Assembly (NCBI GenBank): GCA_021798075.1
Contig: JAJZYO010000040.1
Location: forward strand, 1-11,276
Direction: 5' to 3'
Length of the DNA stretch: 11,276 bases
Source of the DNA: Actinomycetes bacterium
Lineage (GTDB): Bacteria; Actinomycetota; Acidimicrobiia; Acidimicrobiales; Palsa-688
The notes under the pieces were generated by a model. The model saw only the letters and a program-made list of their open reading frames with translations, was not told where the DNA came from and made no database searches. Made by a program: the position numbers and the translations under genes. This document shows positions 1 to 11,276 of this stretch, piece after piece. Positions within the stretch are counted from its first letter, which is position 1, and every line of letters begins with the position of its first letter.

Positions 1-526
1 GGTGCAGATCGTGTTCCAGGACCCCATGTCGTCGCTCGACCCCCGCATGCGGGTTTACGACTTACTGGCCGAGCCCCTCCGGGCGCTCGCGGTGCCGGGC
101 GACCAAGGTGAGCGGGTGGCCGAACTGCTCGCGTCCGTCGAACTGCCAGCCGACGCGGCAAGGCGTTACCCTCACCAGTTCTCAGGCGGCCAGCGCCAGC
201 GCATCGCAATCGCGCGCGCCCTCGGCCCCTCCCCTGAGGTGCTGGTCGCCGATGAACCGGTCAGCGCGCTCGATGTGTCCGTGCGAGCCCAGATCCTGAA
301 CCTGCTCGCCTCGCTCGTGCGCGACTTCAATCTGACCCTCGTGTTCATCTCCCACGACATGGCTGTCGTGCGCCATTTGTGCCGCTCGGTGGCGGTGCTT
401 TACCGGGGGCACCTCGTGGAGACCGGGCCGACCCATCAGATCTACCGATCACCCCAACACGAATACACAAGGGAGCTACTGGCTGCGGTACCGCGGGTGC
501 GCACCGAGCGGGTCAGGGCGCACTGA
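1..526 (+). CDS. Oligopeptide/dipeptide ABC transporter ATP-binding protein, 5'-truncated
   Basis: This is the C-terminal part (about 174 residues visible) of a cytoplasmic ATPase that powers peptide, nickel or similar solute import as the second nucleotide-binding subunit of an Opp/Dpp-type transporter. The visible part opens at the Q-loop ([11 protein letters not shown]). It continues with the ABC signature FSGGQRQR (residues 60-67 of the visible part), Walker B (VLVADEP, 80-86), the D-loop SALD and the H-loop histidine in FISHDM (about 118). It ends with the oligopeptide-family C-terminal segment around [15 protein letters not shown]. The Walker A P-loop lies upstream of the window, so the apparent GTG at position 2 is an internal valine codon, not a start. 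The reading frame is intact to the stop. The Opp/Dpp/Gsi family assignment is firm, but the substrate cannot be told. It is probably the last gene of its transport operon, because a 198-bp gap follows. Confidence 0.93.
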
Positions 527-578
527 GCCCAGTCTCTACCGGCGACGCCGAGCGACGGCAGGCCACGCCGGGCGCCTG

Positions 579-606
579 TTGTGCTCAGGGCGCTCCTCGG
601 TACGGT
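579..606 (+). promoter_or_regulatory. Possible promoter for the Sco-TlpA/ctaG unit
   Basis: TTGTGC (579-584), a 16-bp spacer and TACGGT (601-606) resemble a housekeeping -35/-10 pair with the TANNNT -10 pattern common in Actinobacteria. It would give a 5' leader of about 110 nt before the ATG at 725. The match is modest and based on pattern alone. Confidence 0.25.
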
Positions 607-628
607 GGACAGGTACTGGGACGGCACG

Positions 629-651
629 CCGGGCTCGGCCGGCTAGCCCGG
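629..651 (+). terminator. GC-rich stem-loop, possible terminator of the ABC transporter operon
   Basis: CCGGGCT (629-635) and AGCCCGG (645-651) are perfect inverted repeats around a 9-nt loop. No T-tract follows, so it is not a classic intrinsic terminator. It could act as a weak or Rho-assisted stop, or shape the 5' leader of the next gene. It is the only notable structure in the 527-724 gap. Confidence 0.3.
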
Positions 652-724
652 GACGCCACTTGCAGGCTTCCGGCCGCAGTCACGTGCCGAGGAGCATAGA
701 CGGAGCGCGCGAGATGAGGTGCAA

Positions 725-2047
725 ATGGCTGGAGCGGTTGACAACGAGGCGATGGTGACGGAAGCCACAGCCCGGGTCGCGTCCCACCCGGAGCCGAAAG
801 ACGGTCCCCTCATGACAAGTGGCAAGCGCCGGCCACCCAAGGCGCTGCTTTTTGCGGGCGCGGGAGCCGCTGTGGCTGCCCTGCTCGCGTTGGTCCTACT
901 GCCCAAGCCCTCTCCCGGGGGCGGGACGAGCCCCGGCGGCACGAGCCCCGGGGGGGCGGCCACGGGCGGGCTCGTCGACGGCCCGATGGCCAACCTGCTC
1001 CAGTTGGACGTCTTCAGCCACTGGTTCCAACCGGAGAACTTCAGGCTCACCGACCAGTACGGCAAGACCGTCTCGCTGCGGCAGTTCCGCGGGAAAGTGG
1101 TCCTGCTCTCGTTCAACGACGACCAATGCCCCGACCTGTGCACCCTCTTGGCCCAGGACGTAGTGGCTGCCAACCGGGACATGGGCCCGCGGGCCAAGCA
1201 GGTCGTGTTCCTCGGGGTCAACGTGAACCCCTTCTACCCAGGGGTGCGCTACGTGAAGTCGTGGACCGACAACCACGGGCTCGGGCAGGAGGCCAATTGG
1301 ATCTTCACGACCGGGCCGGTGAAACGGCTCGAGGCCGTCTGGAAGCGCTACGGCGTCACCGTGGCGCTCGACAGGAGAGCCAGGACCGTCCAGCACAGTG
1401 CCGACCTCTACTTCATCAACCCGGCCGGGCACGCGGTCGCTCTGGGCGAGTTCGGGAACAACGATGCCGACACGGCGCTTTTTGCCCACGCCATGGCCCA
1501 GGCGGCCGTCGACCTCCTGCCCCGCTCGCAGCGTGGCCGTGTGGGCGGGCCGTCGGTGCCGGCGCCGACCCCCACCAATGCAACGGTCGGGGCCCCGGCC
1601 CCCTCGTTCGACCTGCCGCTGCTCAACGACCCGCGCCGGGCGCTGTCGTCATCGGCCCTCCGCGGTAGGTACGTCGTCATCAACTTCTGGGCGAGCACAT
1701 GCACCGCCTGCAAACAGGAAATGCCCCACATAGAGCAGGCCTACCGTGAGGTGCGCCGGGACCTCGGCAACCAAGTGGCCTTCGTGGGCGTCGACGTTTC
1801 GGACCGGCGCTTGGCAGCAGCCGCCTTCGCCAAGCGGGCGGGCGTGACCTACTCTCTTGCGTCGGACGCTTCGGGGGCACTGGCCGGCGCTTACCGCATC
1901 CCCGGCCTGCCGTTCACGGCTGTCGTGGGCCCGCACGGCAAGGTGCTCATCCGCCACCCCGGCGCGCTCAGTACCGAGCAGCTCAAGTACGTCGTAGAGA
2001 GCGAGGCGGCCCTGGGGGGCGCCACTGGCCTGGCCAGCAGTGGGTGA
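725..2047 (+). CDS. Membrane-anchored Sco1/SenC - TlpA/ResA thioredoxin fusion protein
   Basis: This is a 440-residue extracytoplasmic redox and copper protein, probably assembling the CuA centre of cytochrome c oxidase. Residues 40-59 form one hydrophobic signal-anchor after a basic segment, followed by a Gly/Ser/Pro linker with TSPGG repeats. Residues about 105-265 form a Sco domain. It keeps the copper-binding CPDLC cysteines (C135, C139) and the conserved histidine in QHSADLYFINP (H224). A proline-rich linker leads to a TlpA/ResA-like domain (about 290-430) with WASTCTACKQEMP (CxxC C326/C329) and the cis-proline loop GLPFT (P396). Known TlpA proteins reduce Sco and CuA cysteines, so having both domains in one chain suggests self-contained reductant and copper donor. 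The ATG at 725 is chosen because GAGG (716-719) lies 5 nt upstream. A GTG at 719 and an ATG at 815 remain possible. ctaG follows after 54 bp. Domain calls are strong and the joint role is inferred. Confidence 0.9.
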   Translation: MAGAVDNEAMVTEATARVASHPEPKDGPLMTSGKRRPPKALLFAGAGAAVAALLALVLLPKPSPGGGTSPGGTSPGGAATGGLVDGPMANLLQLDVFSHWFQPENFRLTDQYGKTVSLRQFRGKVVLLSFNDDQCPDLCTLLAQDVVAANRDMGPRAKQVVFLGVNVNPFYPGVRYVKSWTDNHGLGQEANWIFTTGPVKRLEAVWKRYGVTVALDRRARTVQHSADLYFINPAGHAVALGEFGNNDADTALFAHAMAQAAVDLLPRSQRGRVGGPSVPAPTPTNATVGAPAPSFDLPLLNDPRRALSSSALRGRYVVINFWASTCTACKQEMPHIEQAYREVRRDLGNQVAFVGVDVSDRRLAAAAFAKRAGVTYSLASDASGALAGAYRIPGLPFTAVVGPHGKVLIRHPGALSTEQLKYVVESEAALGGATGLASSG

Positions 2048-2101
2048 ACGGGGCTGGTACCGGTCTTGCCGGAGCAGGGGCACTCATAGGATGAGGCATT
2101 G

Positions 2102-3091
2102 ATGCTGGCGCCCGTGCTGGCCTATGGCAACGCGCCCAGCTCGGCGGTGAGCTTGCACATCCTTCTCACGGGGGTACAGACAGGCGCGCTCGCCCTCTTG
2201 GCGGACGCTTTGGAAGCCCTCGCCCTCGCCCTCTACTTCCTCGGGCTCTGGCGGCTCTCCCGGCGCCATCGGCACTGGCCGGCGTGGAGCACCGCGGCCT
2301 ACGTCCTTGGCGTGGCCATGCTCTGGGTCGCGGTCGGGTCCGGTCTCGCCGCCTACGACCAAGTCAGCGTCACCATGCACGTCGTCCAGCACATCTTGCT
2401 CATGATGGTTGCACCCCCGCTCATAGCGCTGGGCAAACCGGTGACCCTTGCCGCTCAAGCCGCCAGTAGGGCCAACCAGGTACGGCTCCTGAAAGTCGTC
2501 CACAGCTCCCCGGTCGCCGCCCTCACGTTCCCAGTCGTGGCGTGGCTCGTCTACTACGGCACGATGTACGGCTACTTCATGACGCCGATCTACCCGTACT
2601 CGGTGGCGCACCCCCTCTTCCACGACGGGGCCCACCTGTGGTTCTTCCTCGTCGGCTACCTGTACTGGCACCCCCTCGTCGGGCTGGACCCGGCCCGCTG
2701 GCGCTGGCCCTACCCGGTGCGGATCGGCTCGCTGTTCCTCGGCATGCCCTTTGAAGCTTTCTTGGGGATAAGCATCTCGGACCTTCGCACCCCGATCGCC
2801 CCGATCAACACCTTGGCCGACACGCACAGGGCCGGCGACACCTTCTGGGTCGTCTCCATGGCCGCCACGGGCCTGTGCCTGGCGGTCGTCATTGTGCAGT
2901 GGTACCGCCAGCTCGAGCGGGAGACCCCGAGAGAGGACCGCCGGGCCGAGGCGTTGGGGGCCGAGAGCAGGGCCCGGGCGGAGCAGCTCGGTGTCCACGA
3001 GATACCCGAGGGTTTCACCGTCCCCTGGTGGCGCTTGGCCGAGCTCGAGGCAAAGCGTCGTCGTGGTCGTCGTGGAGCTGACGGGAATTGA
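2102..3091 (+). CDS. ctaG: Cytochrome c oxidase assembly factor CtaG (Caa3_CtaG family)
   Basis: This 329-residue polytopic membrane protein of the Caa3_CtaG family is linked to CuB-site assembly of aa3/caa3 oxidases. About seven hydrophobic segments are visible (roughly 30-50, 63-83, 92-113, 138-158, 174-193, 206-225 and 245-267). Family hallmarks are the His-rich HVVQHILLMMVAPPLIALGKP stretch (near residues 93-113) and FHDGAHLWFFLVGYLYWHPL (near 173-192). These histidines are plausible metal ligands. The C-terminal tail (about 268-329) is hydrophilic, charged and presumably cytoplasmic. The ATG at 2102 is preferred over the adjacent TTG at 2099 because GAGG (2093-2096) sits 5 nt upstream. 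A TAGGAT at 2087-2092 could also be an own -10. The last six codons and the stop lie inside the antisense tRNA-Ala gene, which fits a tail under little constraint. It is probably co-transcribed with the Sco-TlpA fusion. Confidence 0.93.
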   Translation: MLAPVLAYGNAPSSAVSLHILLTGVQTGALALLADALEALALALYFLGLWRLSRRHRHWPAWSTAAYVLGVAMLWVAVGSGLAAYDQVSVTMHVVQHILLMMVAPPLIALGKPVTLAAQAASRANQVRLLKVVHSSPVAALTFPVVAWLVYYGTMYGYFMTPIYPYSVAHPLFHDGAHLWFFLVGYLYWHPLVGLDPARWRWPYPVRIGSLFLGMPFEAFLGISISDLRTPIAPINTLADTHRAGDTFWVVSMAATGLCLAVVIVQWYRQLERETPREDRRAEALGAESRARAEQLGVHEIPEGFTVPWWRLAELEAKRRRGRRGADGN

Positions 3092-3145
3092 ACCCGTGGC
3101 CTTCGCCATGCCATGGCGACGCTCTACCAACTGAGCTACAGCCCC
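3073..3145 (-). tRNA. tRNA-Ala (anticodon GGC)
   Basis: On the minus strand a complete 73-nt cloverleaf can be drawn. The acceptor arm is GGGGCTG paired to CAGCTCC, with discriminator A at 3073. The D-arm is GCTC/GAGC, the anticodon stem TCGCC/GGCGA, the T-arm ACGGG-TTCAATT-CCCGT and the variable loop has 5 nt. The anticodon GGC (3112-3110) reads GCC and GCU alanine codons. The acceptor contains a G3:U70 wobble pair, the known identity element of alanyl-tRNA synthetase, which confirms the call independently of the anticodon. The 3' CCA is not encoded. The 3' end overlaps the final 19 bp of ctaG in antisense. Confidence 0.98.
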
Positions 3146-3159
3146 GCTTGGACCCACTG

Positions 3160-3165
3160 ACACTA
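3160..3165 (-). promoter_or_regulatory. Probable -10 element of tRNA-Ala
   Basis: TAGTGT on the minus strand fits TANNNT and lies 14 nt before the mature tRNA 5' end at 3145, implying a start about 7 nt ahead of the tRNA. No convincing -35 is seen at the expected distance. Confidence 0.4.
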
Positions 3166-3258
3166 TCACCCAAACGGCCGTACACGCTGAGGCAGACGCA
3201 CGCGCAAGACGGCGCCGTCGAGGTCAAGGACTCCCGAGGGCGCTCAACACACACCTTA

Positions 3259-3330
3259 TGGTCGAAGTGGCAGGGATGGTCGAAGTGGCAGGGATGGTCG
3301 AGGTGGCAGGGATGGTCGAGGTGGCGGGGC
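3259..3330. repeat. 18-bp minisatellite, four copies
   Basis: The unit TGGTCGAAGTGGCAGGGA occurs at 3259-3276 and 3277-3294 exactly. It recurs at 3295-3312 with one change (A to G) and at 3313-3330 with further changes near its end. Copies abut without spacers, so this is a tandem repeat and not a CRISPR array. The graded divergence suggests growth from one side. Confidence 0.95.
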
Positions 3331-3370
3331 TGGGCCGGCGCCGGCGCAGCGGGTAGGCCAGGCGCCCCTC

Positions 3371-8404: not shown

Positions 8405-9337
8405 GTGCCAGTTCTTCCCCGGTTGCGCCCGGAGATGTCGGATCTCTCTGAGGGGCTTGTCCCCCCGGGCAACGGGGCGAAAGTCCCTGGAGGAGGTGCT
8501 CGAGCGGAGGTGCTCGACTTGGGCGGCCGGCGCCTTGACATTTCCACTCGGGCCCTAGTCATGGGCATCATCAACAGGACCCCGGACTCCTTCTACGACC
8601 ACGGCGTCACGTGGGAGTGGGGCGCTTTTTGGCGGCGCGCAGCCGAGATCGTGGAGGAGGGCGCCGACATAATCGACGTCGGGGCGGTGAAGGCAGGCGT
8701 CGGGCCCGAGGTGGGCGAGGCCGAGGAGATGGACCGGTTACTGCCGGCGGTCGAGGGCCTCGTGGACCGCTTCGACGTGGCCGTGTCGGTCGACACCTGG
8801 CGTGCGCCTGTGGCGGCCGAGGCTTTCCGGCTCGGGGCAGTGCTCGGCAACGACATAAGCGGTTTCGCCGACCCCGGGTACCTGCCGGCCGCTGCAGCCG
8901 CGGGCGCGAGCGTGGTCGCCACCCACATCCGCCTGGCGCCTCGGGTCTTGGACCCCCACCCCGTCTACGACGACGTCGTGGGGGAGGTGTACACGTACCT
9001 CCGCCACCGGGCCGCCCGCGCCGAAGCCGCCGGCATACCGCGCGAGCGCATAGTCATCGACCCGGGCCTCGACCTCGGCAAGGACACCGACCAGTCGCTG
9101 GCTTTGCTCGGAACCTCGGAGACCTTTGCCGGACTCGGCTACCCGCTCTTGCTCGCCGCGTCCAACAAGGACTTCCTGTGTGGACTGCTCGGCCTAGGCA
9201 TCAACGAACGTCGGGAGGCGACCCTCGCGGCCCAAGCTCTCGGCGTGACCCTCGGTTGCCGGGTGCTGCGCACCCATTTCGTCGAAGCGACTCGCCGGGT
9301 GAGGGACATGATCGCAGCTGTCCTGGAGGCGGCGTGA
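8405..9337 (+). CDS. folP2: FolP2-like dihydropteroate synthase family protein
   Basis: This is a TIM-barrel protein of up to 310 residues in the pterin-binding (DHPS) family. Conserved DHPS elements are MGIINRTPDSFYD (53-65), SVDT (128-131), GNDISGF (148-154), DPGLDLGKDTDQSLALL (219-235) and SNKDFL (253-258). The pABA/substrate-loop motif GGESTRPG is replaced by GAVKAGVG (93-100), the SRK motif by SNK, and MHMR-type by THIR (173-176). These variants (NRTPDSFYD, VKAG, THIRLAPR) match the mycobacterial FolP2 subgroup, for which the reported tests I know of showed no DHPS activity. It is therefore probably not the folate-pathway enzyme and its reaction is unknown. The start is uncertain: GTG 8405 has no clear Shine-Dalgarno, and ATG 8435 and GTG 8510 are in-frame alternatives. 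The first 45 or so residues are non-conserved. holA follows after 31 bp, so co-transcription is likely. Confidence 0.88.
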   Translation: MPVLPRLRPEMSDLSEGLVPPGNGAKVPGGGARAEVLDLGGRRLDISTRALVMGIINRTPDSFYDHGVTWEWGAFWRRAAEIVEEGADIIDVGAVKAGVGPEVGEAEEMDRLLPAVEGLVDRFDVAVSVDTWRAPVAAEAFRLGAVLGNDISGFADPGYLPAAAAAGASVVATHIRLAPRVLDPHPVYDDVVGEVYTYLRHRAARAEAAGIPRERIVIDPGLDLGKDTDQSLALLGTSETFAGLGYPLLLAASNKDFLCGLLGLGINERREATLAAQALGVTLGCRVLRTHFVEATRRVRDMIAAVLEAA

Positions 9338-9368
9338 GCTGCGTCGTGGGAGCGACGCCCGGAGAGGG

Positions 9369-10550
9369 GTGAGCAGGGGCGTGGCAGCAAGCCGGGGAGG
9401 TGGGGCGGACAGGGCGCCGGGCCCCGCGAGCGGGCCGGCGGGCCCAGCGAGCGGGCCGGCGGGCCCAGCGAGCGGGCCGGCGGCGACTCTCGCCTGGCTC
9501 ATCACCGGCGACGAACCGACCCTCGTGTCCGAGGCCGTGGGGGAGGTCGTGAAAGAACTGGTGGGGGACACCGACCGCTCGCTCGTGGTCGAGGACTACT
9601 CGGGCGACGACGTGGACCTGCGGGCGGTGGCCGATGCCTGCTTGACACCCCCGTTCCTTTCGGACCGCCGGGTCGTGGTCGTACGCGACGCCGGGCGTTT
9701 CCCCGCCGATCAGCTCCAGGCGCTTGTGTCCTACCTCGAGCACCCTCTCCCGACGAGCAGGTTGGTGGTGGCGGGTGGAGGAGGGCAGCTGCCGGCCAAG
9801 TTCGTCAATGGTTTCAAGCAGTCGCCGGCGGCGAGGGTCGTCGCCACGGACGTCGGGGCCAGGGAGGCGCACGGTTGGCTGACGGAGCGCCTGGGGCGCG
9901 CGCCGGTGAAGCTCGACCGGGAGGCGGCGGCTCTCCTGGAGGCACACCTCGGCGAGGACTTCTCCCGCCTCGGGGCACTCCTCGCGGTGCTCGAAGCCGC
10001 GTATGGGAGAGGTGCCCGGGTCGGGCGGGCAGAGCTGGCTCCTTACCTCGGCCAGCCCGGTGCCGTCCCGCCCTGGGACCTGACCGACGCCATCGACAGG
10101 GGCGACACCGAGCTCGCTCTCAGGCTCCTCCACCGCCTCTCCGACGCCGGAGGGCGCCACCCGCTGGTCGTCCTGGCGATCTTGCACCGCCACTTCGGCA
10201 ACATCTTGCGGGTGCAGTCGCCTACGGTAGCGTCGGAGGCAGATGCCGCTGCGGCCCTCGGCATCGCCAAAGGGCGGAGCACGTTCCCGGCCAAAAAGGC
10301 CCTCGATGCCGCTCGCCGGCTCGGCCCCGCCGGCGCCGGCGACGCCATCACGGCGCTGGCCGACGCCGAGCTGGCGCTCAAGGGAAAGCTCGACTGGGAG
10401 CCGCTCTGGGTGCTCGAAGTGCTGATAGCCCGCCTGTGCCGACTGTCACGTGCCGCCCGGTCCTCGGCCGGAGCAAGGGGACGGGCTGGGGCGCGCAGGG
10501 CTGCGCCGGCGGGGCGGGCGGGGCGGACGGTGGTGCCACGAGAGCGCTGA
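9369..10550 (+). CDS. holA: DNA polymerase III subunit delta
   Basis: This is the delta subunit of the clamp-loader complex, which opens the beta sliding clamp for chromosome replication. The family core begins at about residue 40 with LAWLITGDEPTLVSEAV. It continues with the typical LTPPFLSDRRVVVVRDAGRF segment (about 93-112), which contains the delta helix and hydrophobic contacts to beta. Domain II follows, then the helical collar domain III with HPLVVLAILHRHFGNILRVQ and the LADAELALKGKLDWEPLWVLEVLIARL hallmark near the C-terminus. At 393 residues it is longer than usual. The first 39 residues are a low-complexity GPASGPA repeat linker and the last 28 or so an Arg/Ala/Gly-rich basic tail. 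GTG 9369 is preceded by GGAGAGG (9361-9367). A downstream start cannot be excluded because the linker is not conserved. Unlike many actinobacteria, comEA/comEC do not precede it. Confidence 0.95.
   Translation: MSRGVAASRGGGADRAPGPASGPAGPASGPAGPASGPAATLAWLITGDEPTLVSEAVGEVVKELVGDTDRSLVVEDYSGDDVDLRAVADACLTPPFLSDRRVVVVRDAGRFPADQLQALVSYLEHPLPTSRLVVAGGGGQLPAKFVNGFKQSPAARVVATDVGAREAHGWLTERLGRAPVKLDREAAALLEAHLGEDFSRLGALLAVLEAAYGRGARVGRAELAPYLGQPGAVPPWDLTDAIDRGDTELALRLLHRLSDAGGRHPLVVLAILHRHFGNILRVQSPTVASEADAAAALGIAKGRSTFPAKKALDAARRLGPAGAGDAITALADAELALKGKLDWEPLWVLEVLIARLCRLSRAARSSAGARGRAGARRAAPAGRAGRTVVPRER
9426..9483. repeat. 21-bp tandem repeat inside the 5' end of holA
   Basis: Two identical 21-bp copies (9426-9446 and 9447-9467) and a 16-bp partial third copy (9468-9483) encode successive GPASGPA heptads. 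The length keeps the reading frame, so copy number can vary without breaking the gene. Confidence 0.95.
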
Positions 10551-10642
10551 GGCGCGGCGATCGCAGGTCCGGCGCTAAGTGCTAAGGCGCTCTCGGGCGC
10601 TCGGGCCGGTGCCGGCTCCTCGCCGACGTCGTTAGCCAGCCA

Positions 10643-10680
10643 GAGTGGCGAAAAATGTCCACTTCGCTAAAAAATGTCGC
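10643..10680. repeat. AT-rich island with hairpin and paired AAAAATGTC motifs
   Basis: AGTGG (10644-10648) and CCACT (10659-10663) are inverted repeats around CGAAAAATGT. A second copy of the inner motif, CTAAAAAATGTC (10667-10678), follows about 19 bp after the first. Base composition departs sharply from the surrounding GC-rich DNA. The layout recalls the repeated ends of some insertion sequences, but no transposase is present. Confidence 0.55.
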
Positions 10681-10772
10681 GTTCGTTGCCAAATACGCCC
10701 CGAACGCGTCAGAGGTGGACGAAGGAGACAGAAGTAATCGGCCAGAAGGCGCCGACGGTGGTCACCGGCCGC

Positions 10773-10800
10773 CAAAAAGCTGCCGACGGTGGTCACCGGC
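10773..10800 (-). terminator. Intrinsic terminator, distal copy
   Basis: The second unit repeats the same minus-strand hairpin (10800-10782, stem GCCGGUG/CGUCGGC with two G-U pairs) followed by AGC and T5 (10778-10774). A third hairpin at 10769-10751 is followed by a degraded T-run (GCCTTCTGG). Confidence 0.6.
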
Positions 10801-10803
10801 CGC

Positions 10804-10831
10804 CAAAAAGCTGCCGACGGTGGTCGCCGGC
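10804..10831 (-). terminator. Intrinsic terminator, proximal copy
   Basis: Read on the minus strand, 10831-10813 folds into a 7-bp stem (GCCGGCG with CGUCGGC, one G-U pair) closed by a 5-nt ACCAC loop. AGC and a T5 run (10809-10805) follow directly. It lies 76 nt past the stop of the minus-strand gene ending at 10907. On the plus strand no T-run follows, so the signal has a direction. Confidence 0.65.
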
Positions 10832-10906
10832 CCTGCCGGAAGTCCGCCGGCCAGAAGCTCGCCGACGGAGCCAGAAGCTCGCCGGCGGGTTTCGAGCGGG
10901 ACTTTA

Positions 10907-11276
10907 TTAGCCCTGCTCGTCCTCCGCCGAACTGGCGGGGACGGCCACGTGCACGCCCACGTCTTCGGCGTCCTCGGCCTGGCCTGCGTCCGCCTCGCCG
11001 GCCGCGTCGACGCCCTCCTCTTCGGCAAGAACATCCTCGCCGGCCTCGGTCTCTTCGCCGGCCTCGGTCTCTTCGCCGGCCTCGGTCTCTTCGCCGGCCT
11101 CGGTCCCTTCGCCGGCCCCGATCTGGGCCTTAGCCCGCCTTCCCCTTCTCGGGAGGCGCGGCCGAAGGACGGTGCGCTCTTGCCTGGCACGCTGGCTGCT
11201 GGCCGCTGGGGTAACGGTCTCCGTGGCCACTTCGTCACCCAGGGTGGTCCCTACCTCCTCTTCGCCCGAGCGCGCT
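10907..11276 (-). CDS. C-terminal tail of an unidentified acidic, repeat-containing protein (5'-truncated by the window edge)
   Basis: An open minus-strand frame of 122 codons runs from the window edge to TAA at 10909-10907. No family was recognised. The first 60 or so visible residues are mixed and include a basic patch (LRPRLPRRGRRAKAQ). Then come four near-exact TEAGEE hexapeptides and an Ala/Glu/Asp/Gly-rich tail ending SSAEDEQG. The composition indicates intrinsic disorder, as in acidic tails of ribosomal or nucleic-acid-binding proteins, but that is only an analogy. Codons are mostly GC-ending and the repeat length is a multiple of three, both supporting this frame over the Arg/Pro-rich alternatives. 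A GTG at 11230 could start a 107-residue protein, but it lacks a Shine-Dalgarno, so continuation from outside the window is more likely. Terminator-like hairpins follow downstream. Confidence 0.6.
   Translation of the reverse strand, partial: ARSGEEEVGTTLGDEVATETVTPAASSQRARQERTVLRPRLPRRGRRAKAQIGAGEGTEAGEETEAGEETEAGEETEAGEDVLAEEEGVDAAGEADAGQAEDAEDVGVHVAVPASSAEDEQG
11039..11110. repeat. 18-bp in-frame tandem repeat, four copies
   Basis: Units GCCGGCCTCGGTCTCTTC at 11039-11056, 11057-11074 and 11075-11092 are identical. The copy at 11093-11110 has one T-to-C change, and a partial copy follows to about 11119. On the minus strand the array encodes repeated TEAGEE hexapeptides of the acidic tail. 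Confidence 0.95.

Follow-up and report, generated by a model that had tools for sequence, protein, structure and literature searches.

A family of single-chain Sco-TlpA proteins, usually encoded beside a CcdA-like membrane protein in actinobacterial genomes

Background

The copper ligands of bacterial Sco proteins are given as the motif CXXXCXnH (PMC9145763). There is dispute over whether they serve as copper chaperones, as thiol reductases, or in both ways; one cause is uncertainty about what supplies reducing power outside the membrane (PMC3603459, PMC9145763). For Bradyrhizobium, TlpA is reported to reduce both ScoI and CoxB (PMC6696091, PMC9145763), which agrees with the premise of a sequence-only reading of the DNA considered here: that TlpA-type proteins reduce Sco and the CuA site where the proteins are separate. 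ResA and CcdA are reported to serve cytochrome c synthesis (PMC9145763). Finally, Caa3-type CtaG is described as distinct from the Gram-negative CtaG, which is the Cox11 orthologue (PMC13344008).

The components and the pathway are therefore known. A literature search found no published description of a Sco-TlpA fusion, nor of the single chain with an adjacent divergent CcdA; most subscription papers were outside the reach of this search, so it is weak evidence of absence.

The fusion protein and its neighbours

The window, meaning the whole stretch of 11,276 nucleotides that was analysed, encodes a Sco-TlpA fusion protein of 440 residues (positions 725..2047, + strand). A helix predicted at residues 40-58 (842..898, +; AlphaFold2 secondary structure, pLDDT 72-76), preceded by GKRRPPK, is the probable single, N-terminal membrane anchor. 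The sequence-only reading proposed that one protein carries an intact Sco domain (C135, C139, H224) and an intact TlpA/ResA domain (C326, C329, P396), and that ctaG follows. This arrangement is confirmed.

The first domain (residues 105-236; 1037..1432, +) matches the SCO1-SenC family (Pfam PF02630, 6.9e-19) and contains the CXXXC cysteines along with the distal histidine. In the predicted model, residues 101-265 adopt the Sco fold, and BjScoI (4wbj) is a match by fold. The 50 VIA-align matches listed come mainly from the TlpA domain rather than from the Sco half; among them, all rows aligning to about residues 82-269 are Sco proteins (4wbj, 4hde, 6n5u, 2k6v, 4bpy, 2ggt, and 1wp0). The thiol-peroxidase model PRK09437 reaches only 29 of 140 bits on this half. 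The Pfam match, the fold matches, and the full ligand set thus identify a Sco-type domain, not the plain peroxiredoxin or AhpC-type fold that the earlier reading had weighed against it.

The second domain (residues 288-417; 1586..1975, +; Pfam PF00578/PF08534) places a CTAC motif (326-329) and the cis-proline P396 within a redoxin/thioredoxin fold, as in TlpA/ResA-like thiol-disulphide oxidoreductases. Its closest PDB entry by sequence is ResA (1st9), which is near by fold as well. It nevertheless falls below the NCBIfam curated cut-offs for ResA (92.2 of 170 bits), DsbE (52.8 of 123), and rhizobial TlpA (41.4 of 230). By sequence, it is a ResA/TlpA-like domain outside these three named subfamilies. 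The linker is modelled with pLDDT 80-96 by blocks, a feature of a predicted structure that bears only suggestively on whether CTAC can reach CPDLC.

Downstream lies ctaG (2099..3091, +), listed from a TTG start with an ATG at 2102. Its product belongs to the Caa3_CtaG family (PF09678, 1e-61; 208.8 bits, cut-off 27.7), and scores 38.7 of 279 bits against the Caa3_CtaG equivalog TIGR02737, below the NCBIfam curated cut-off. Judged on these scores, it is a family member and not the Bacillus-type equivalog. The gene upstream of the fusion, cut by the window edge, encodes an oligopeptide-type ABC-transporter ATPase. A scan of window positions 500-3300 returned no promoter-like site, and three terminator-like sites against 1.1 expected: two within the fusion gene and one within ctaG. 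The first 3,074 bases of the window correspond to contig C47 of the nearest compared genome (G001) at 99.7% identity.

Other features of the window were noted in passing. A tRNA-Ala(GGC) on the opposite strand (3072-3145, -) shares 20 bases with the 3' end of the called ctaG gene. Short tandem arrays occur at 3258-3333 (18 bp), 9418-9483 (21 bp), and 11037-11117 (18 bp); the second falls inside a DNA polymerase III delta-like reading frame.

Conserved and unusual residues

A protein search scored at least 7,995 candidates and yielded 210 homologues, the best 120 of which were aligned with the query to give 121 sequences. Within this alignment, the Sco ligands are retained almost without exception (C135 and C139, 120/121 each; H224, 121/121), as are the catalytic residues of the TlpA domain (C326 and C329, 120/121 each; P396, 121/121).

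The Sco loop of the fusions is distinctive. Its common form is NDDxCxD(L/I/V)C, and the residue that follows is mostly threonine: the 47 fusion rows have 36 Thr, including Thr140 of the window protein, with 7 Ala and 4 Pro. Proline occupies this position in all 14 other Sco rows, so the window protein departs from the usual CxxxCP loop. This proline is a common Sco residue rather than a defining one; the altered loop may shift copper affinity. Two histidines also set the fusions apart: H411, in the TlpA domain (47/47 fusion rows versus 6/18 others), and H255 (39/47 versus 0/14). Possible roles are interdomain contact or an extra metal ligand.

Genome G016 contains two related paralogues. One (L123:5552-6709, on contig C499) is still fused and keeps a TlpA CSAC motif, and both of its Sco cysteines are gone; the other (L124) is a partial copy that retains them.

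A divergent CcdA partner

The sequence-only reading held that the TlpA domain would need an electron donor, such as a CcdA-like protein, and saw none. Indeed, no CcdA was seen within the 11,276 nucleotides. The wider family tells more: a membrane protein of about 300 residues, CcdA-like as described below, is encoded at 40 of 46 fusion loci, no more than 0.8 kb upstream of the fusion gene, and the nearest genome has it at another locus (G001:C123). Of the six loci that lack it upstream, two (L053 and L065) are cut off there by a contig edge. CtaG is encoded within 2.5 kb on the same strand in 34/46; both neighbours are present in 31/46, and at least one in 43/46.

In 33 of the 40 linked loci, the fusion frame has a start codon that precedes the end of the CcdA-like gene's stop codon by 1-17 bases. 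Frames of 656-788 residues running over that gene in nine loci raised the prospect of a CcdA-Sco-TlpA triple fusion, which was rejected. In eight of the nine, the extra part is another reading frame of the CcdA-like gene; in the ninth (L046, A. terricola), its first part is the CcdA-like protein in frame, and the gene there is itself split between two frames (9047-9932), by mutation or sequence error. Overall, the two frames differ in 39/40 loci, and in the remaining one (L038) the fusion frame opens after the stop codon of the CcdA-like gene. The CcdA-like protein is translated separately from the fusion.

Its identity rests on several comparisons. Two cysteines are invariant in 20 rows: C20, in an NPCG motif, and C137. 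The profile matches the solved CcdA structure 5vkv at 6.9e-9 over positions 6-217, and 5vkv is also the first-ranked Foldseek match of the model (probability 1.00), but with a modest E value of 0.03 and TM scores of 0.37/0.46. Against Pfam DsbD_TM (cut-off 27.1), the protein from L025 scores 20.9 bits, and those from L022 and the nearest genome give no match. These sequence comparisons define a divergent CcdA subfamily.

Does this protein accompany the fusion at the level of whole genomes? At E<1e-55, its profile matches in 25/25 fusion genomes (10 of the window's family and 15 via named loci), at least nine of which contributed profile rows and so match by construction (G003, G005, G018, G434, G436, G438, G443, G444, and G448). 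Among fusion-less genomes of the window's family it matches in 1/15 (Fisher p 3.4e-6, uncorrected for kinship or linkage). That one (G022) has neither the fusion nor any Sco match. A genus of 23 genomes that includes an Arthrobacter gives the same picture: the fusion is present in four, and the CcdA-like gene at E<1e-55 in exactly those four and none of the other 19 (Fisher p 1.1e-4, again uncorrected for kinship or linkage, with one of the four genomes in the profile). The two genes travel together, so linkage accounts for part of this signal. In G001, G002, and G008, however, the CcdA-like gene lies mid-contig on a different contig from the fusion, yet is present; a similar separation in G019 is probably a contig break.

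The association does not extend across the order. In its other families, 9 of 16 fusion-less genomes carry a gene of this type at E<1e-55, each with a TlpA match beside it. The CcdA-like protein therefore seems to be the partner of TlpA domains of this type, and it follows the fusion at the family and genus levels, not beyond.

Several neighbouring genes recur. The flanks of 12/46 fusion loci contain a MarR-regulator cluster (for example, L039:7562-8074), and those of 17/46 a CLC-type chloride-channel cluster (for example, L037:5083-7176). The unlinked CcdA-like gene of the nearest genome (L116:6917-9365) adjoins one for a 467-residue Lipoprotein_15 secreted-repeat protein, and its counterpart in G002 has surroundings that are similar by first residues.

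Distribution and origin of the fusion

The Sco-TlpA fusion is a real family. Scanning species genomes gave 112 confirmed stretches, and the best 80 of these correspond to 78 distinct loci. Fusion loci make up 46 of the 78 (L021-L066, chosen by matches), including one cut by a contig end (L065) and one broken in frame (L066). In the latter (M. elymi, 9826-11255), the fusion is split over two frames, by mutation or sequence error. Sources are Acidimicrobiaceae and unclassified actinobacterial MAGs, Arthrobacter, Paenarthrobacter, Microbacteriaceae, and Actinotalea. L040 and L056 carry Proteobacteria and Acidobacteriota bin names, respectively, which may be binning errors.

Whole-genome searches found both-domain matches in 10/25 genomes of the window's family and in 0/16 from the other families of the order. 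Phylum-wide, at least 1 of 396 genomes matched at E<=1e-35, namely the nearest genome; four first-look candidates were scored per genome, so this low count is a sign of rarity only.

The core fusions fall on one side of a branch in trees of both domains: 46 rows with support 97 for the Sco domain, and 47 rows with support 90, which is not conclusive, for the TlpA domain. In these trees L065 and L066 are labelled as fused, and the G016 paralogues are set apart. Earlier one-clade tests (p 0.01 for Sco, 8e-5 for TlpA), in which L065 and L066 were labelled unfused, are superseded.

Other fused proteins are known from single loci. One from the Chloroflexi UBA6019 (L098:10822-11748) has a best segment 26% identical. 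Another, of 565 residues, from a Solirubrobacterales MAG (L067:3159-4856), has an intact Sco domain, a middle thioredoxin-like stretch without CXXC, and a C-terminal TlpA-like stretch with CAPC; it adjoins CtaB, a second Sco, CtaG, COX1, and COX2. Adding the G016 paralogues to the one-clade test gives p 0.24 (TlpA tree), and adding L067 and L098 as well gives p 0.41 (Sco tree). Common origin of these proteins with the core fusions is thus neither shown nor rejected.

Unfused counterparts point to a possible source. In a single cluster, the nearest genome encodes COX2, COX1, three CtaG proteins, an ordinary CcdA, CtaB, TlpA, and two Sco proteins, all as separate genes. Unfused Sco, CcdA, and TlpA genes stand in a row in G020; TlpA, Sco, and CtaG adjoin COX2 and COX1 in G010. 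Altogether, unfused counterparts were located in cox clusters of G001, G010, and G006. Such clusters, along with the pairs of TlpA and CcdA-like genes in other families, suggest that a pair of this kind captured a Sco domain, an order of events that we infer.

Relation to cytochrome oxidase

Genomes with the fusion do not lack a CuA oxidase, which the sequence-only reading had named as a finding that would tell against it. Of the 25 fusion genomes, 24 gave a COX2 match, as did 38/40 of all genomes searched; the two without a match (G025 and G022) are both incomplete. All 14 COX2 regions read, 13 from ten fusion genomes and one from the fusion-less G023, retain intact CuA ligands. A suspected COX2 without CuA was dropped: sequences missed by the first motif carry CTQFC, CNNIC, or CTNLC and retain the His and Met ligands. 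The ctaG gene occurs in 40/40 genomes. The idea that the fusion tracks with ctaG and cox genes is accordingly not discriminating, as both COX2 and CtaG are near-universal here, with or without it.

Physical linkage to the oxidase is rare. COX1 and COX2 are near the fusion in 1/46 loci (L033, with a CtaG-COX1-COX2 cluster some 1.5 kb away), and CtaB is beside it in another (L060). Queries with COX1, COX2, and CtaB matched nothing in the other 44 of the 46 loci, 30 of the 46 being at least 15 kb long.

That the fusion replaces stand-alone Sco holds in some lineages only. It fails in the nearest genome, where two Sco matches occur besides the fusion, and in the window's family 3/10 fusion genomes have no Sco match other than the fusion. 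In G016, the additional Sco matches are themselves fusion-like. In all 15 fusion genomes that we take to be Micrococcales, Sco matches other than the fusion are weak: 7.4e-6 or weaker, with at least five over the cut-off.

The 23-genome genus again provides a useful comparison. COX2 is present, by match, in all 23, and a Sco match below 1e-13 only in the four with the fusion. The other 19 thus keep COX2 while lacking both the fusion and a strong Sco match; eight of them have a weak Sco match (2.6e-6 or worse, in frames of about 160-190 residues), seven over the Pfam cut-off. These 19 genomes argue against an obligatory CuA role for the fusion.

A proposed mechanism and its rivals

Two intact domains with conserved residues, linkage to and co-occurrence with the CcdA-like protein, and unfused components in cox clusters are the observations to be explained. 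The explanation we favour, somewhat above even chance, is that a membrane-anchored Sco chaperone with an attached thiol reductase, supplied by the CcdA-like protein, loads copper alongside CtaG. The electron path is drawn from published work on TlpA, Sco, and CcdA (PMC9145763, PMC6696091). Electrons would pass from cytosolic thioredoxin through the CcdA-like protein to the CTAC of the TlpA domain, which would reduce the CxxxC of the adjoining Sco domain and so allow copper to rebind, re-priming it in cis. Perhaps the TlpA domain would also reduce the two CuA-site cysteines of oxidase subunit II. Reduced Sco would bind and transfer copper, and CtaG would take part in its insertion. Fusion would speed the step between TlpA and Sco and fix the ratio of the two. 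We infer the electron flow, the copper binding, and CuA as the target.

If the fusion acted mainly when copper is low, this would fit its patchy distribution, as well as the sco mutants that are reported to be rescued by copper (B. subtilis; PMC13344008) or to show a phenotype at low copper (S. lividans; PMC3603459). As a counterpoint, S. lividans Sco is reported to be a copper chaperone and not a thiol-disulphide reductase (PMC3603459). Other points against this explanation are the retention of COX2 without the fusion in 19/23 genomes, the non-exclusive CcdA-like partner, the altered Sco loop, the G016 paralogue that lacks Sco cysteines, the complete separate set already present in the nearest genome, and the scarcity of COX1 and COX2 near the fusion.

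Several of these points might be taken to mean that the fusion serves general thiol-redox chemistry outside the cytoplasm, its Sco half being substrate-binding or peroxidase-like with no specific copper delivery. COX2 genomes of one genus mostly do without it, a MarR-family cluster is nearby in some loci, and one paralogue has dispensed with its Sco cysteines. We consider this improbable in view of the near-invariance of the three copper ligands across the best 120 of 210 homologues and the query, the proximity of CtaG in 34/46 loci, the exclusively Sco character of the rows at about 82-269 among the matches listed, and the low PRK09437 score. The retention of COX2 in those 19 genomes, and the distance of most fusion loci from COX1 and COX2, could equally mean that copper is supplied to another cuproprotein, or to the CuB site, instead of CuA; Caa3_CtaG is placed at CuB only tentatively (PMC9145763). 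The unfused counterparts in cox clusters of three genomes, and the L067 cox cluster that holds both a Sco and a related Sco-TlpA protein, speak for the oxidase, and no cuproprotein is among the ten flank proteins scanned around fusion loci, a scan that covered recurrent genes. A different target is unlikely on this evidence.

A bolder version of the copper-loading explanation is that the CcdA-like protein, Sco-TlpA, and CtaG form a self-contained copper and electron module, which would move as a unit between actinobacterial lineages, with Sco re-reduced in cis after each transfer, its loop remodelled, and no PCuAC needed. PCuAC is found in 1/26 fusion genomes versus 7/34 others. This version is tentative, and we would sooner doubt than accept it.

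Comparison with known systems

Together, the CcdA-like protein, Sco-TlpA, and CtaG probably constitute a compact toolkit for supplying a respiratory oxidase with copper. With a Sco and a likely reductase united in one chain, and a CcdA-family gene usually adjoining, the disputed role of Sco would become testable with a single polypeptide. The patchy presence of the fusion among cultured Arthrobacter, whose relatives include some that have no strong Sco match, is a natural comparison.

The Bradyrhizobium pair of ScoI and TlpA, whose mixed disulphide has been crystallized (4txo), draws on the same two domain families, and the two chains of 4txo match the two halves of the fusion. There they are two proteins; here they are one chain, usually with an adjacent CcdA-family gene and CtaG. 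Bacillus subtilis offers likenesses to the rest of the locus: the TlpA domain is closest in PDB sequences to ResA, the CcdA-like protein matches CcdA, and the CtaG proteins share a Pfam family. ResA, however, is not fused to Sco. The Streptomyces lividans Sco (4bpy), the reported chaperone, stands alone, and its operon is reported to include a PCuAC-like gene (PMC3603459), in contrast to the near-absence of PCuAC from fusion genomes. Finally, the planctomycete Sco-CtaM (DUF420) and Corynebacterium CtaG-CopD (CtiP) proteins, as reported, likewise place two copper-assembly domains in one chain (PMC13344008, PMC9145763). They use different domains, and neither unites Sco with TlpA.
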